The notes under the pieces: generated by a model
What the model was told of the DNA's origin: nothing
The model's input: the letters and a program-made list of their open reading frames with translations, nothing else
Database searches by the model: none
Assembly (NCBI RefSeq): GCF_000948975.2
Contig: NZ_CP059735.1
Location: 2,170,001 to 2,234,000, forward strand
Direction of reading: 5' to 3'
Source of the DNA: Thalassomonas actiniarum
GTDB lineage: Bacteria > Pseudomonadota > Gammaproteobacteria > Enterobacterales > Alteromonadaceae
DNA: 64,000 nucleotides
Translations under genes and position numbers: made by a program
Shown here: positions 15,948-61,578 of the stretch, piece by piece
Layout of the letters: every line of letters starts with the position of its first letter
How positions within the stretch are numbered: the first letter of the stretch is position 1

Positions 15948-16526
15948 TTAAGTTTTGTTTTTTATAAAGCAGTTCTTGTTATTTTGAATTTGTTGTATTT
16001 GTTTATTGCGCCATTGTTCTTCTTTAGTTGTAGGGAATTTCTTATTCCACTTCAGCATTAAAGGTCTTAAGCCGTGATCTGGTAAATTATATTTCCATAT
16101 CATGTAAAGGATAGAGCGGGCGATTTTGCCTTTGGGGTAATCTCTTGGCCCTATTCCTTCAGTGTTTCCCTCAAAATCACATTTATCTTCCGGGAAGCGC
16201 ATTACTTCCCCTGGGATTTCAATAAACGGTAACTTGCCCCTGCTGCTGTTATAACGGGAAAGGGCTGGTCAAAGGTTATGCAGGTCAGAACTTGCCTTTT
16301 TATAGGCTTCTTTATCGCAATTTTCGCGACTTTCACACCTATTGGCTTGTGCTATCCAATGCGACGGGTAAACATGTTCAACAGTGACTTTTGGGCCCGC
16401 TTCTTTGCTTGCGGCACAATAGAGCGTGTGATAGCTCTGGCTATATAATTTTGGCCAGAAAACTTCATCCCGGACACGTTCATATTCACTACACACTGAC
16501 ACTGACACTGACACTGACACTGACAC
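15948..16526 (-). pseudogene. Broken endonuclease I gene (nonsense codon, lost signal peptide)
   Basis: Read as one frame, this is a paralogue of the protein at 2603-3280. Upstream lies EVFWPKLYSQSYHTLYC, VEHVYPSHW and SDLHNL; downstream PALSRY, LPFIEIPGE, EDKCDFE, GKIARSILYM and WRNKQ. Between DLHNL and PAL the conserved tryptophan TGG is TGA (16,269-16,271), with no change of frame, so the gene is split into two short frames. The N-terminal signal peptide is also missing: the frame enters from a hexamer repeat that encodes alternating serine and valine. The E-H catalytic pair is kept in VEHVYP, unlike the intact paralogue. The late GNRNP motif is altered to NNKNC. Two independent lesions indicate a dead gene. 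Confidence 0.88.
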
Positions 16527-16530
16527 TGAC
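16493..16530. repeat. Hexanucleotide microsatellite, about 6.3 copies
   Basis: ACACTG is repeated six times plus two bases without error. It lies at the 5' end of the endonuclease pseudogene, where it encodes a Ser-Val run in place of a signal peptide, and directly abuts repeat copy 2. Because the unit is a multiple of three, length changes would not shift the frame. Confidence 0.95.
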
Positions 16531-19195: not shown

Positions 19196-19636
19196 ATGCC
19201 AGCAATAAGCCGTAGTGCCTTAGTGATGCACAGTGTTGAGGATATGTATAGCCTCATAAATGACGTTTTAGCGTACCCGGCATTTTTACCGGATTGCAGC
19301 GACAGTAAAATAATCTCGCAAGATGAGCATTCTATGACCGCTGCCTTACTGGTGTCCAAGGGCGGGATAAAGAAGTGGTTTACCACAAAAAATACCTTGG
19401 TAAATAACAAGCAGGTAGAATTAAACCTGGTGGACGGGCCTTTTAAAAAACTGGTGGGCAGCTGGCAGTTAACCGCGTTGTCGGATGAAGCCTGTAAGGT
19501 GAATTTAGAGCTTGAATATGAGTTTTCCAGTAAAATGTTTGATCTTGCTTTTGGCCGGGTGTTTAACCACCTGGTAAATAATATGGTGCAGGCGTTTACC
19601 AACCGGGCAAAAGAGGTGTACGGCAACAATGTCTGA
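19196..19636 (+). CDS. ratA: RatA/Coq10-type START-domain protein
   Basis: The 146-residue protein belongs to the Coq10/RatA group: [20 protein letters not shown] at the N-terminus, [13 protein letters not shown], then [13 protein letters not shown] and FEFSSK-type segment [18 protein letters not shown]. In E. coli, RatA was described as an inhibitor of 70S ribosome assembly, while the fold suggests ubiquinone binding. The start at 19,196 follows AAGGGGG; the 22 upstream codons overlap the smpB promoter and are unlikely. It overlaps rnfH by 8 bases, so the two are translationally coupled. Gene order smpB-ratA-rnfH matches other gammaproteobacteria. Confidence 0.93.
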
Positions 19637-20030
19637 TAAAGATGTAGCAGCAACGAAATCTGAGGCTGATGAAGCAGCCTATGTCGAACAAATCCAGATT
19701 GAAGTGGTTTACGGTTTATCCCACAAGCAGGAATTGATCACTGTGATGGTGGATGAAGGCACTACGGTTGAGCAGGCGATTATCGCCTCCGGTATAACCG
19801 AGCTGTTTGACGATATCGAGCTGGGGAAAAATAAAGTCGGTATCTGGAACCGGGCGGCGAAATATACCGATGTGCTGGCGGATTTAGATCGCATTGAAAT
19901 TTACCGTCCGCTGATTGCCGATCCGAAAGAGGTCCGCAAACGCCGCGCCGAAAAAGCGGTGGAAGAGGGGCGGGCCAATAAAATTACTGGTGGCAGACCG
20001 GTAAAACTTGGCGCTAAGGGCGACAAATAA
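19629..20030 (+). CDS. rnfH: RnfH/RatB family protein (UPF0125)
   Basis: The 133-residue product has the ubiquitin-like beta-grasp pattern of Rnf[24 protein letters not shown] (key parts VVYGL and TVEQAI), then [40 protein letters not shown]. The typical length is about 100; here both ends are somewhat extended. The conserved YRPLxxDPKExRRxRA block is intact. It starts inside the end of ratA and is followed by a terminator at 20,061. The molecular function of the family is not settled. Confidence 0.93.
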
Positions 20031-20060
20031 ACGCTAATGCTTTTTAACTAGCACGATGAA

Positions 20061-20087
20061 AGCGGGCCAGGTATGGTCCGCTTTTTT
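20061..20087 (+). terminator. Intrinsic terminator after rnfH
   Basis: AGCGGGCCA/TGGTCCGCT (20,061-20,069 with 20,074-20,082, one wobble pair) is followed by TTTTTT. The tandem array begins four bases later. Confidence 0.92.
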
Positions 20088-20090
20088 ATA

Positions 20091-20275
20091 TACAGGATGT
20101 ATGGTATGCCGCGATTATATGGATGTGAAAGAGCGGCGGTTACAGGATGTATGGTATGCCGCGGTCACAAGGATGTGAAAGAGCGGCGGTTACAGGATGT
20201 ATGGTATGCCGCGATCATATGGATGTGAAAGAGTGACGGTTACAGGATGTATGTCGCAGTCACAGGAATGTAATG
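20091..20275 (+). repeat. Intergenic tandem array 1: three 50-bp units plus a remnant
   Basis: Units start at 20,091, 20,141 and 20,191; a degenerate piece follows at 20,241-20,275. Each unit has a left box TACAGGATGTATGGTAT, a 5-base arm GCCGC, 8 bases, GGATG, 7 bases and, in units 1 and 2, the pairing arm GCGGC. In unit 3 the right arm is changed to GTGAC. There are no unique spacers, so it is not a CRISPR. The same architecture with different arms occurs at 37,253-37,411. Confidence 0.93.
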
Positions 20276-20457
20276 AAGTGCCTCTGCCGTCATTTAAGCT
20301 CAATATAAGCTTCAATAATATTTAACCCTTTCAGACCTCCTTCATTTTAAACCCCTGCTATCTTCATTTTGTCTGTCGAACCTTTGCTTATTTTGGCGGC
20401 TGTGGTGTACCTTTAGGCTATAAATTATTGTTTTGGCTTTAAAATGGGGGATATCAG

Positions 20458-36211: not shown

Positions 36212-37192
36212 ATGGATTTAATTTTTAAAACGCTACCGGCTAACCCTAGCTATGAGCAAAGCTGCAGTATCCTGGATGATAATCCGGATGAATTCTGGCA
36301 ACCGTTATTGCGCTTTATTCAGGAAAAACATGGTTTGGCTCAGGGGAGCTGGCAACGGATCCACGCCGGTGGCAATGCATTATTTGCGTTAAACGATGCG
36401 TTTATTGTCAAAGTGGTGCCACCGAATTGGGTCTATCAGGGACAGGCGGAAATTGATGCCTCGACATTATTGGGTCAGCAGCTATCAATAGCTATTCCTC
36501 AGGTATTGGCATCGGGTAGCGTCAATAACTGGCTTTATGTGGTGATGACGAAATTGCCGGGTGTATCGCTGGCAGATGTCTGGCAACAGCTAAATCAGAG
36601 TGAGAAATTGCTACTGGTGCAGCAATTGGGACTGTTTATCCGGGAATTACACAGCTTACCTTTAGCTGGCGACAATAAGATGAAGGTGAACTGGGCAGAT
36701 TATATCGATAAACTTAAGCAAGATTGTCTGCCCAGACATCAACGTAAAGGCGTGAGTGAAAACCTGATTGCACAGATTGAACCTTATCTGGCGCAGCAGG
36801 CTTTAGCGCAAGGGATGGCTTTTGATGACGGCATTGATATGTTTATTCATATGGATCTGCACCCGTGGAATTTGATGGTCGAGCAAAAAGACGGTCAATA
36901 TCGTTTATGCGGTGTGTTGGACTTTGGCGATGCCATCGTCGGCAGAAGCCGGTTGTTAGAGTTGCTGACGCCTATGTTGTTTATGTGCCAGGGGAATGAA
37001 GCCTTAGTGCGGGCATTACTGGAAAGTTACTCCCTGCTTGATATCGGTGATAAGGAAGAGTTACGACGGCAGCTGATGGCAATAGCTCTGCTCAGACCGG
37101 CATGTGATTTTAACTTTGTTTTATCCCAGGTACCGCAGACCGGGGAGCGAGAGAACTGGCAGCAGATATCAGAGCAGTTATTCCCCCTTTAA
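36212..37192 (+). CDS. APH-family phosphotransferase
   Basis: The 326-residue protein has the kinase fold of aminoglycoside phosphotransferase-like enzymes: the N-lobe IHAGGNALFALNDAFIVKVVPP (key Lys in IVKVV), the catalytic loop FIHMDLHPWNLM and the metal motif LDFGDAIVG. Many members phosphorylate small metabolites such as choline, homoserine or methylthioribose, or amino sugars, and few confer resistance. The substrate is not evident. It follows nhaA by 31 bases and is closed by a terminator at 37,221. There is no signal peptide. Confidence 0.87.
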   Translation: MDLIFKTLPANPSYEQSCSILDDNPDEFWQPLLRFIQEKHGLAQGSWQRIHAGGNALFALNDAFIVKVVPPNWVYQGQAEIDASTLLGQQLSIAIPQVLASGSVNNWLYVVMTKLPGVSLADVWQQLNQSEKLLLVQQLGLFIRELHSLPLAGDNKMKVNWADYIDKLKQDCLPRHQRKGVSENLIAQIEPYLAQQALAQGMAFDDGIDMFIHMDLHPWNLMVEQKDGQYRLCGVLDFGDAIVGRSRLLELLTPMLFMCQGNEALVRALLESYSLLDIGDKEELRRQLMAIALLRPACDFNFVLSQVPQTGERENWQQISEQLFPL

Positions 37193-37220
37193 GCGCTTGA
37201 AACAAAGCGGATGAAAGCAA

Positions 37221-37253
37221 ACAGCACAATGGCCTTGTCCTTGTGCTGTTATT
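37221..37253 (+). terminator. Hairpin terminator after the phosphotransferase gene
   Basis: ACAGCACAA/TTGTGCTGT (37,221-37,229 with 37,241-37,249) is followed by TATTT, a weak T tract. Tandem array 2 starts at its end. Confidence 0.65.
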
Positions 37254-37411
37254 TACAGGACGTAATGTATGTCATGGGTCCACGGATGGACGGGAATGAC
37301 GATTATTACAGGATGTAATGTATGTCATGGGTTCACGGATGGACAAGAATGACGATTATTACAGGACGTAATGTTTGTCATGGGTCTATGGATGGACAGC
37401 AAGGGCACTCT
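37253..37411 (+). repeat. Intergenic tandem array 2: three 53-bp units
   Basis: Units start at 37,253, 37,306 and 37,359. Each has a left box TTACAGGAYGTAATGTAT, an arm GTCAT, 8 bases, GGATG, 7 bases and, in units 1 and 2, the pairing arm ATGAC; unit 3 has lost the right arm. Inside the loop a second pairing GTCC/GGAC is possible in unit 1. The element spacing equals that of array 1 at 20,091, while the arm sequences differ. It lies between a terminator and the end of the lrp-like gene. Confidence 0.93.
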
Positions 37412-57897: not shown

Positions 57898-60800
57898 ATG
57901 CAACGATGGTTAAGCCTGTGCCTGTGGCAGGTTCTTTTTGTTGGTATGGTGAGTATGCCGGTATTTGCTTTTCAGGAAGCCGGGATACAAATTCGAGGTC
58001 CTAAAAACACCGACCCTTTTCCTTATGGCCGTTACGGGCCTATCTCAGGGCAAGATACCTTGTGGGGCATCGCCACCCAGGTACGTCCAGACCCCGGTTT
58101 ATCTATTTATCAGGTTATGCAGGCCCTGTATCGGGCCAATCCCCAGGCTTTTGCCGATAACAATATCAATCATCTGGTTGAAGGTCAGTTAATGGCGGTA
58201 CCTGCCTATGATGAAATGGTGCGTATCAATAAATCCGCTGCCCAACAATTAGTCGAACAAGCGGTGCAGGCCTGGAGTAAAGGCGGCAGGCAACCCGAAG
58301 AGCAGTCGGTTCAGAAAAAAGATCTGGAAGCGGCCAAATCTGAAATCAATGATCAGTTGCAAAATTATGGCAATTCCCAGCAACAGAAACTTAAAGTGAT
58401 CCAAAGGGATGTTGCCGACTCCATTGACGGCTTGCAGGCGATTTTAAAAGAAAATGCAGAATTAAGGGCCAAGCTGGCGGTCTTTACTGAGCAGCTGGCG
58501 GTGATGCAGCAAGAAGTGGCCAAAAGCGAAGAAATCAAACCTCAGATGGATGACATCCTTAAACTGCAACAGGAAATGTATACCCTGGCGGCAGAGCGGG
58601 ATCGTCTGGCGCAGGCAGAAGCTGAGCGGAAAAACTCTCTGAATAATTATTTGCTGATAGGGCTGGGGTCCACCGTGCCGGCACTCTTGCTGGCTGGCGG
58701 GGGGTATTTGCTCTGGAATCGCCGTAAAACAGCAACTGCCGATGCCGCAGAGAAACCTGTTGCCAAGAAGAAATCGAAAGCAGCTAAAACTGAAGAGCCT
58801 GAGCCGGAAGTTGCGGCAGTTGAAGAGCCGGAGCCGGCGGAGGAATTAACCTTAGATAATGAATTGTCTCTGGATGATGAACTGTCCATAGATCTGGCGG
58901 AAAGTGACGATGATTTGTTCTCTGATGATTTGGATGATCTGGGCAGCGATGAATTACTCGATGATGATGTGATTCACCTGGATGATGAGCTTGATGATTT
59001 AGACGATCTGGATGATTTAGAAGATATTTCCCTGGATCTTGATGCGGATGAAGAAGGGGAATTACTCGAAGGCGGTGAGCTTGGACAAGGGGATCTGGAC
59101 GATTTATTATCCGGCTTGGACGAAGATGAAACACCTGAAGAGGAAACCTCTGAAGCACTGCCAGGCGGTGAGTTGGGTCAGGGGGATCTGGATGATTTAT
59201 TATCCGGTCTGGATGAAGATGAAACATCTGAAGAAGAGACATCAGAAGAGCTGCCCGGCGGTGAACTGGGGCAAGGTGATTTGGATGCCTTATTATCTGG
59301 CCTGGATGAGGATGAAACGGCAACAGAAGCAGCAGAAGTAGCTGAGGCTGATTCTGCTGAAGGCTCTGCAGAAATTACCGATCCCGATGATATCGATGCC
59401 TTATTAGAAGCTGCCGATAAGGATACTGTGGTGTCGGATCCCGATGATATTGATGCCTTGTTGGAAGCGTCGGCATCGCCTGAACCAGAGGCAGCGAAAG
59501 AAATTCCCGAAGGGGCAGATGTTACTGACCCCGATGATATTGATGCCTTGTTGGCAGCATCGGCAGCACCTGAGGCCGCGAAAGAAATTCCTGAAGGGGC
59601 TGATGTCACCGACCCTGATGATATTGATGCCTTGTTGGCAGCATCGGCATCGCCTGAGCCAGAGGCCGCGGAGGAAATTCCCGAAGGGGCAGATGTTACC
59701 GACCCTGATGATATTGATGCCTTGTTGGCAGCATCGGCAGCACCGGCACCTGAGCCGGCGAAAGAAATTCCCGAAGGAGCGGATGTCACCGACCCCGATG
59801 ATATTGATGCCTTGTTGGCAGCATCGGCAGCACCGGCGCCTGAACCGGCGAAAGAAATTCCTGAAGGGGCAGATGTTACCGATCCCGATGATATTGATGC
59901 CTTGTTGGCAGCATCGGCAGCACCGGCGCCTGAACCGGCGAAAGAAATTCCGGAAGGGGCAGATGTTACCGATCCCGATGATATTGATGCCTTGTTGGCA
60001 GCATCGGCAGCACCGGCACCAGAAGCCGCTAAAGAAATTCCGGAAGGGGCGGATGTTACTGACCCTGACGATATTGACGCCTTGTTGGCGGCGGTAGCAC
60101 CTGAGCCTGAACCAGCGAAAGAAATCCCGGAAGGAGCGGATGTTACCGATCCCGATGATATCGACGCCTTACTGGCGGCGGCAGCGCCAGAAGCTGAGGC
60201 AGCACCTGAGTCTGGAGTGGCTGCTGATGTCAATGCCGAGGTGACAGATCCCGACGATATTGATGCTCTCTTGGGGGATATCCAAAACCTGGCCAATGAC
60301 GAGGTCAGTATTGATGATGTCTTACAGGATGTCGCGGCGGAGCAAAGCAGTGAGCAACCGGCTGATGCCGAGGTTTCAAAGCAAGATGCCGATAGCGTTA
60401 CAGATGCAGAGACTCGCGCAAAAATAGAAAGTTTTACCGAAGAATATGTTGCTCCCTTCCTGGCGATGGACTTTAGCGATATCACGGGGAAAGACAGCGG
60501 CAAAGAAAGTGAGCAAGCAAGTACTGGGGAAATTGACCAGGAAAGTGTCGAAGCCGCCGATAGTGAAAGTGTCCCGGAAAGAGAAGCGGTTAGTGAAGAC
60601 AGCAAGCAAGATATTGATAAGCTGGATGAGCCTGCTGTTCAGGAAGATGACCTAAACAGTGAACTTGATCTTGATGCCATTTTACAGGATGTGGAAAGTG
60701 AAGCGCCATCAGCAGAGGATGAACTCGATATTGGTGACGATATCCTGGATGAAGGTATTCCGGATGAGCTGTTGGATGAGATTGCTCAAAGTGAAGGGGG

Positions 60801-61578
60801 AGATGAACTTACCGACGCTTTTGAACATGAGCTTGATGAAGCTGCTTTATCCCAGCTATTAACGGAAGACGACGTGGCTGAAGGTGAGCAAGCCGAAGTT
60901 GGGGAAGTGGCTAATGAGATCACGCCTGATTTTACCGATGAGAATATTTTGGCTGATTTGCTTACCGATGAGTCGAGCACGAAAAAACAGATAGCAGAAG
61001 CATCAGAAATAGATGATATTAAAGAGCTGAATAACTTAGATTTTGATGAATTGCTGGCCAACATTGAAGAAGAGTCGTCACTGACACCAGATGTTCCTGA
61101 TCTGGCAGAGGAATTAATAGCTGAGTCGAGCGATGAGGCAAGTGAAGCGGTTATCGCTGATGTTCTGGATGATGAGTTCGATATCGGTGATGACCTTGAT
61201 ATCGGCGATGAGCTTGAATTACCGCCAGAAAGTCAGCAAGAGGAGGTTCCTCAGGAACAGGGTTCAGCTGCCGATGAAGATTATGTCTCGGTGGACAGTT
61301 TATTATCCGAGACTCAGGAACAGGCCTCCGATGAGGAGCCCTATGAAAAGACCAATATTGATGTCGGTTTTGATGAATTTCCTGAATTTGCCGCCGAAGG
61401 CGATGATATCGACGTTGATGATGACAGTAATGCCATCACGGCGAAACTGGATTTAGCCAAGGTCTATATTGAAATCGGCGATGTGGAAAATGCCCAGGTT
61501 ATTTTACAGGATGTGCTCAGCGACGGTGATGATCAGCAAAAACAAACGGCTGAGGAGTTGTTAAAGGATTTAGGTTGA
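57898..61578 (+). CDS. fimV: FimV/HubP polar landmark protein with long acidic repeats
   Basis: The 1226-residue protein organises the cell pole: homologues recruit chromosome, chemotaxis and pilus or flagellar components. It has a signal peptide (about 1-25), a periplasmic LysM-like domain (about 38-105, with DTLWGIATQVRP), a coiled coil (about 135-245), one membrane helix (about 250-272) and a very acidic cytoplasmic part of over 900 residues. That part holds three 31-residue repeats around GELGQGDLDDLLSGLDEDET and eleven DPDDIDALL units. The C-terminus ends with the conserved FimV domain AKLDLAKVYIEIGDVENAQ. It lies between asd and truA, the usual place. Confidence 0.96.
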   Translation: MQRWLSLCLWQVLFVGMVSMPVFAFQEAGIQIRGPKNTDPFPYGRYGPISGQDTLWGIATQVRPDPGLSIYQVMQALYRANPQAFADNNINHLVEGQLMAVPAYDEMVRINKSAAQQLVEQAVQAWSKGGRQPEEQSVQKKDLEAAKSEINDQLQNYGNSQQQKLKVIQRDVADSIDGLQAILKENAELRAKLAVFTEQLAVMQQEVAKSEEIKPQMDDILKLQQEMYTLAAERDRLAQAEAERKNSLNNYLLIGLGSTVPALLLAGGGYLLWNRRKTATADAAEKPVAKKKSKAAKTEEPEPEVAAVEEPEPAEELTLDNELSLDDELSIDLAESDDDLFSDDLDDLGSDELLDDDVIHLDDELDDLDDLDDLEDISLDLDADEEGELLEGGELGQGDLDDLLSGLDEDETPEEETSEALPGGELGQGDLDDLLSGLDEDETSEEETSEELPGGELGQGDLDALLSGLDEDETATEAAEVAEADSAEGSAEITDPDDIDALLEAADKDTVVSDPDDIDALLEASASPEPEAAKEIPEGADVTDPDDIDALLAASAAPEAAKEIPEGADVTDPDDIDALLAASASPEPEAAEEIPEGADVTDPDDIDALLAASAAPAPEPAKEIPEGADVTDPDDIDALLAASAAPAPEPAKEIPEGADVTDPDDIDALLAASAAPAPEPAKEIPEGADVTDPDDIDALLAASAAPAPEAAKEIPEGADVTDPDDIDALLAAVAPEPEPAKEIPEGADVTDPDDIDALLAAAAPEAEAAPESGVAADVNAEVTDPDDIDALLGDIQNLANDEVSIDDVLQDVAAEQSSEQPADAEVSKQDADSVTDAETRAKIESFTEEYVAPFLAMDFSDITGKDSGKESEQASTGEIDQESVEAADSESVPEREAVSEDSKQDIDKLDEPAVQEDDLNSELDLDAILQDVESEAPSAEDELDIGDDILDEGIPDELLDEIAQSEGGDELTDAFEHELDEAALSQLLTEDDVAEGEQAEVGEVANEITPDFTDENILADLLTDESSTKKQIAEASEIDDIKELNNLDFDELLANIEEESSLTPDVPDLAEELIAESSDEASEAVIADVLDDEFDIGDDLDIGDELELPPESQQEEVPQEQGSAADEDYVSVDSLLSETQEQASDEEPYEKTNIDVGFDEFPEFAAEGDDIDVDDDSNAITAKLDLAKVYIEIGDVENAQVILQDVLSDGDDQQKQTAEELLKDLG
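59071..59318 (+). repeat. Three 93-bp coding repeats in fimV
   Basis: Units begin at 59,071, 59,164 and 59,257 and encode GGELGQGDLDxLLSGLDEDE followed by a Glu/Thr-rich spacer. The 31-codon period is exact. DNA copies are similar but not identical. Confidence 0.92.
59374..60274 (+). repeat. Eleven-copy acidic coding repeat in fimV
   Basis: DPDDIDALL recurs eleven times, mostly in a unit of about 30 codons with an Ala/Pro/Glu spacer and EIPEGADVT. Several central units are nearly identical in DNA, which suggests recent expansion by slippage or unequal crossing-over. Confidence 0.95.

Follow-up and report, generated by a model that had tools for sequence, protein, structure and literature searches.

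Tandem GGA-hairpin arrays behind terminators in Thalassomonas actiniarum: a covarying repeat family and a candidate CsrB-like decoy

What are the two short tandem arrays that repeat detection finds in a 64,000-nucleotide (nt) stretch of the Thalassomonas actiniarum genome, and what might they do? The stretch (hereafter the window) is C1:2170001-2234000 of a 7.49-Mb genome on two contigs, C1 and C2, and it carries an array of 50-base-pair (bp) units at 20091-20253 (array 1) and one of 53-bp units at 37253-37398 (array 2). The two are members of one family, which is real, strongly covarying and without a gathering-score match in Rfam 15. We give a probability of roughly 0.55 to the proposal, drawn from sequence, that these arrays constitute a dispersed, terminator-associated, CsrB-like decoy for CsrA that would be made by transcriptional read-through.

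A covarying unit of two hairpins

Each unit consists of two hairpins, H1 and H2, joined by a linker with an invariant GTA. H1 has a stem of 4 bp capped by an AGGAN or ANGGAN loop, and H2 is built from a 5-bp outer stem, 2 nt, a 4-bp inner stem, an ANGGAN hexaloop and 4 nt. An earlier note on the window had described the plan common to both arrays (an ACAGGAYGTA box, a 5-base arm, 8 bases, GGATG, 7 bases and a 5-base return arm), and units 1-3 of array 1 and units 1-2 of array 2 follow it without deviation. Overlooked at that time were an inner stem of 4 bp enclosed by the outer arms (e.g. TCAC/GTGA, GTCC/GGAC), the fact that the box is a hairpin in its own right, and the GGA loops with their resemblance to CsrA sites. 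The features of the two arrays, as given by repeat detection and our covariance model R1, are as follows.

20060-20087, + strand: terminator hairpin followed by T6, read from the sequence
20090-20237, + strand: array 1, three full 50-bp units, each with H1 and a nested H2
20090-20102 and 20108-20137, + strand: H1 and H2, respectively, of the first unit of array 1
20241-20282, + strand: fourth unit of array 1, decayed, with the box retained and the second half changed (R1, E 0.08)
37220-37253, + strand: strong hairpin with a weak T tail, terminator-like
37253-37353, + strand: array 2, two full 53-bp units of array 1's family
37360-37406, + strand: third unit of array 2, partly decayed (R1, E 6.7e-6)

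The final unit of either array is a decayed one. The perfect arm pairing claimed previously is found in four of the five intact units; in unit 3 of array 1 the arms GCCGC/GTGAC contain one non-standard pair. Likewise, the statement that both arrays lie straight after a terminator stands for array 1, with its hairpin and T6, and has to be softened for array 2, where the hairpin is strong with an 11-base loop and the tail is only TTATT. A simple terminator scan calls neither site, whereas our own terminator test passes both.

There are 70 copies of the box ACAGGAYGTA in the genome, compared with 22 of a reversed-pattern control. The covariance-model search that the earlier note had recommended was performed with R1, built from 19 units drawn from 32 box-selected units, and returned at least 145 units in 70 arrays (E<=1); the number is a lower bound, with 150 candidates scored and matches up to E 1 counted. 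An alignment of 34 units, one per array, was obtained from the 70 arrays after dropping 20 in which the first unit was not 47 nt long, 10 with a 6-nt H1 loop and 6 with a box lacking GGA. In this alignment 95.7% of pairing cells form a pair, compared with 66.2% in shuffles; 12 of the 13 pairs have changed on both sides, doubly changed cells number 136 rather than 40.3, and the covariation score is 0.821 as opposed to 0.249, with GGA retained in both loops. Shifting the partner by 1-3 columns abolishes the signal, and RNAalifold, to which no structure was supplied, predicts the identical fold. Arms across the genome thus do not differ freely without pairing, the outcome named beforehand as telling against selection on structure, and the case for such selection, be it on a cruciform or on an RNA, survives.

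Further support comes from units and columns beyond this alignment. The outermost H1 pair includes the base directly 5' of the box and is formed in 52 of 53 first units where 28.2 would be expected (H1 was counted in 108 of the 145 units). At one locus (L040) the sequences of both hairpins have been exchanged, with fold and loop retained. Among 89 distinct foreign units, found with a pattern in which the arms were left free, pairing at the three unconstrained inner positions reaches 96% of cells, compared with 51% in shuffles. For the outer pairs the values are 90% and 83%; this contrast is weaker, many of these units having GCCGC/GCGGC in common. Finally, within the outer and inner stems, G-U is more frequent than A-C on the array strand (38 versus 12), which points to a single folded strand, although mutation bias could contribute.

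Several related repeats were encountered alongside the family. A composite longer unit (L063, L068, L344; e.g. C1:734688-734881 and C1:1607701-1607991) resembles an ordinary unit interrupted at GGT|ATG by an insert of ~46 nt, which brings two extra hairpins; the loop of one reads TCC (GGA on the opposite strand). A related second repeat (ACAGGATGTAAGTACTTAGCTT...GGGAGC...) with GGA or TCC hairpin loops is intermixed with the arrays at L056, L058, L059, L061, L070 and L071. A long divergent tandem array (TTCAGGATGAATGGTAGGTCACGCCTTATTTATAAGG...) occupies C1:5694081-5694462, where R1 detects a single unit.

Location behind terminators and distribution

The position of the arrays is as regular as their fold. 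We scored a terminator where a hairpin of <= -6 kcal/mol and a T-rich tract on the same strand ended 0-3 nt before the first unit; 51 of the 70 arrays are positive, as opposed to 1 of 70 in a mirror control, and in other genomes the corresponding figures are 84 of 116 versus 1 of 110. By simple calling of open reading frames (ORFs), a crude count in which 10 of the 70 arrays overlap a called ORF, 63 arrays are located 3' to an ORF of their own strand, and 38 are flanked by a same-strand ORF upstream and an opposite-strand ORF downstream. With the origin side taken from GC skew, 57 of the 70 arrays are on the leading strand, compared with 169 of 284 sampled ORFs (p 0.0005) and with 39 of 60 ORFs at array-free loci (p 0.045).

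All listed arrays (70) are on C1, the main chromosome, and none is on the second replicon, C2 (0.94 Mb, one eighth of the genome), a distribution with a chance of 9e-5 when reckoned by arrays; in one congener (G001) a few units were seen on its own C2. Three congeners hold at least 105, 90 and 95 units (E<=0.001). More widely, the element is present in 18 of 59 genomes, our own counted, in 40 of 369 genomes of a class-wide draw at 1e-4, and in 15 of 398 genomes of a phylum-wide draw at 1e-5, 7 of those 15 belonging to one family outside the class. All counts from these multi-genome searches, in which 104, 16 or 15 candidates per genome were scored, are lower bounds. A pattern scan of named genomes gave at least 119 stretches, with Thalassomonas records among the carriers and Marinobacterium, Amphritea, Neptunomonas, Colwellia, Bermanella, Nitrincola, Sedimenticola and Thiolapillus among the matches listed. 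Copies are scattered across the Gammaproteobacteria; no counterpart to array 1 turned up at E 0.001 in the Escherichia coli genomes searched.

Comparison with the three congeners reveals considerable turnover. The array-1 locus holds four units here and 1, 6 and 1 in G002, G003 and G001, respectively; the second hairpin lacks GGA in both single-unit congeners (G002 and G001), and the terminator hairpin is lost in G003. Seven other loci in the three congeners make 21 places, which on inspection by eye comprised 9 with recognisable units or fragments, 3 decayed, 8 bare terminators and 1 with neither. Two of the 8 terminators without a recognisable unit have possible remnants. Since terminators occur without arrays in congeners, the arrays have been gained and lost at standing terminators.

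The genes immediately upstream of the two arrays in the window are:

19629-20030: RnfH-family ubiquitin-like protein (PF03658), upstream of array 1
36212-37192: protein with an APH phosphotransferase domain (PF01636), upstream of array 2

Close to either array, sense-strand promoter-like sites do not rise above the level of shuffles. A weak antisense promoter-like match (9/12) was noted in each of array 1's three units (20101-20229, - strand), 3 against 2.0 in shuffles. Elsewhere in the window, a 90/180/270-bp tandem repeat lies at 59437-60170 within a large ORF (57898-61578), and the hexamer ACACTG is repeated 6.3 times without mismatch at 16493-16530.

Possible roles: CsrA decoy or mobile repeat

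GGA is present in all 77 distinct 47-nt units (95 of the 145 matches are 47 nt long); 70 of the 77 have A as their first loop base, and the second is free. H1 mostly has the short AGGAN form, as in the genome's own CsrB candidate. Within 8586 bp of arrays there are 233 strict GGA hairpins on the array strand and 9 on the opposite one, against a background of 0.12 per kb (the window and 400 bp around arrays excluded); read-through transcripts would then carry several GGA loop motifs in one RNA, as expected of a CsrB-type decoy. The GGA hairpins of one unit are ~25 nt apart, a spacing that a CsrA dimer might be able to bridge. The published high-affinity consensus for CsrA/RsmE is a hexaloop ANGGAX set directly on a stem (PMC4005645). 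These features fit RNA hairpins that were selected for a CsrA-type binder.

Such a decoy also calls for csrA in the same genome, and there is one gene (91.4 bits) with a 65-amino-acid product of ordinary sequence. The Rfam model for CsrB, RF00018, gives eight matches in the genome, five of them on four array loci and three that are candidates for CsrB-like small RNAs (sRNAs):

C1:4532410-4532744: CsrB candidate 1, 66.2 bits, slightly below the cut-off of 71
C2:402479-402827: CsrB-like candidate 2, 57 bits
C1:4757320-4757558: CsrB-like candidate 3, 31.7 bits

From these observations we infer array transcription, CsrA binding, titration and a mode of spread. Each unit would offer two GGA hairpins as putative CsrA sites. 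As most arrays begin right after the upstream gene's terminator, in the orientation of that gene, they would be transcribed if RNA polymerase reads through. Many operons might each contribute a few sites in proportion to leakage, with a consequent lowering of free CsrA. At existing terminators, arrays are acquired or lost, increase in unit number and undergo homogenisation. By analogy, a CsrA-binding RNA behind a first terminator has a precedent in RrA/RrB/RrF of E. coli (PMC8144298). The family probably works like a CsrB-type decoy, without being a CsrB member by the Rfam definition.

Of course, a number of observations weigh against a decoy. The loop counts are partly circular because the units were found with a GGA-rich model. 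Matches to RF00018 on array loci reach only 13-24 bits, far under the gathering score, and they count little because sub-cut-off matches also arise in unrelated control genomes as remote as Haloferax and Sulfolobus. In 5 of 40 element-bearing genomes csrA was not found (four of these are 55-77% complete and one 95%), and the co-occurrence of element and csrA is at base rate (35 of 40 versus 313 of 369), hence uninformative. Nineteen of the 70 arrays fail the strict terminator test, several of them by eye having a related longer module first or a weak tail, and copies in another class (L362, L363) have no T run in front. Moreover, an exact phase to the T run is not something that a decoy requires. 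Taken singly, units show only a modest folding advantage over shuffles (z +0.50 to -2.61), and within whole arrays adjacent units are able to pair together (z -3.54 and -4.36, terminator hairpin included).

The near-fixed phase to the T tract suggests insertion behind terminators, and it is the starting point for the strongest alternative, a selfish or passive mobile repeat that uses the ground behind terminators as a harmless site, its hairpins being recognised as single-stranded DNA or RNA by a mobilising enzyme and their likeness to CsrA sites being incidental or secondary. The 8 of 21 orthologous places that have a terminator but no recognisable unit, the patchy distribution in Gammaproteobacteria, the excess on the leading strand and the similar insertion of group IIC introns behind terminators (PMC8919778) all speak for this. 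Conversely, the genome lacks the Y1 transposase PF01797, the group II introns inspected by eye are not behind T runs, and array 1 is unmatched in plasmids and phages; furthermore, an exact GGA beside a free second base, together with the module swap at L040 that kept fold and loop, need not follow from a mere DNA substrate. We regard this explanation as tentative and rather unlikely, about half as credible as the decoy.

Two further explanations appear improbable. In a DNA-level element resembling REP/BIME, hairpins or tandem phase behind operons would matter and the RNA would not; the tandem arrangement in intergenic space 3' of genes and the 38 arrays in convergent settings are in keeping with this, yet GGA loops stay constant while stems vary with compensation, the G-U excess (to which mutation bias may add) indicates one folded strand, and the genome has no RAYT. 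Slightly less probable still is a cis-acting element at the 3' side that adjusts termination, decay of the 3' end or convergent interference for the upstream gene, for which location and strand would be apt; arrays, however, come and go at the same genes among congeners, and the window's two upstream genes are unrelated.

The decoy and mobility are not exclusive: the family may both spread by insertion and be retained through feeding the Csr network. It is tempting to speculate, if doubtfully, that dozens of unrelated operons have come to form a distributed CsrA sponge through a mobile, terminator-targeted repeat with CsrA-binding hairpins. The dose of this sponge would report genome-wide terminator leakage, and in many Gammaproteobacteria it would couple termination to the Csr network. 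By current understanding, CsrA activity is governed chiefly by a few sRNA genes. Were the decoy proposal true, hundreds of high-affinity-type sites behind terminators would form a distributed CsrA input tied to read-through, and would illustrate how a repeat can spread while providing regulatory RNA. The family also supplies a simple rule for further finds, namely to inspect the sequence just behind terminators.

Comparison with known systems

The earlier claim that no named family covers the element holds for Rfam. In the window, neither array has an Rfam 15 match that reaches gathering score, and relaxed scans give sub-threshold matches only; the same is true of eight array-bearing loci searched to E 0.5, where the best match is CsrB at L138 (23.3 bits, E 0.0095). 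Searches of open-licence PMC papers yielded none recognisable as a description of such arrays.

REP/BIME repeats with their RAYT are, like the arrays, dispersed intergenic hairpin repeats; they are bound by gyrase and other proteins, and in REP/RAYT systems a REP tetranucleotide stands at the hairpin foot. The arrays differ in their conserved GGA loops and in a genome without Y1 transposase. An origin from REP/RAYT or IS200/IS605 was rejected, with 0 matches to PF01797 in the genome while control genomes did give matches, as was a plasmid or phage origin, array 1 being unmatched in the plasmid and phage collections; two viral contigs do match the element pattern.

Group IIC introns insert immediately behind intrinsic terminators (PMC8919778), which is where most of the arrays lie. 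No Rfam intron match was found in the window or in the 8 array loci, and the arrays are not considered such introns. Two kinds of group II intron occur in the genome, and three near-identical group II intron copies were seen at C1:3031365, C1:4433857 and C2:322865, two of which matched Rfam D1D4-6. As a mobiliser a group II intron was discounted, the 5' sides of 3 of 4 copies not being behind T runs (by eye, without exact mapping).

A pair of hairpins bearing GGA loops is also seen in TwoAYGGAY (RF01731) and the reverse strand of Bacillaceae-1 (RF01690), proposed as CsrA-binding RNAs (PMC4333381); each matches below threshold in the array-strand sense. Membership in TwoAYGGAY was rejected (18.0 bits at array 2 against a cut-off of 43, unlisted at array 1, with an E at chance level), and the Bacillaceae-1 reverse strand scores 15.0 and 16.6 bits against a cut-off of 35, again with an E at chance level.

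In setting, the arrays resemble RrA/RrB/RrF of E. coli, a GGA-bearing read-through RNA behind a first terminator that binds CsrA in vitro (PMC8144298); these differ from the arrays in number (three copies) and in lying within rRNA operons, flanked by two terminators. The resemblance in content is to the sRNAs CsrB, CsrC and RsmZ (RF00018, clan CL00106). Membership by the Rfam definition was rejected on score (best array match 24.1 bits), yet these sRNAs, like the arrays, bear many GGA hairpins per RNA, and the arrays have the H1 type C-AGGAN-G in common with the genome's CsrB candidate. Unlike one sRNA gene, however, the arrays are scattered behind many terminators and built from a rigid 47-nt tandem unit of two hairpins.
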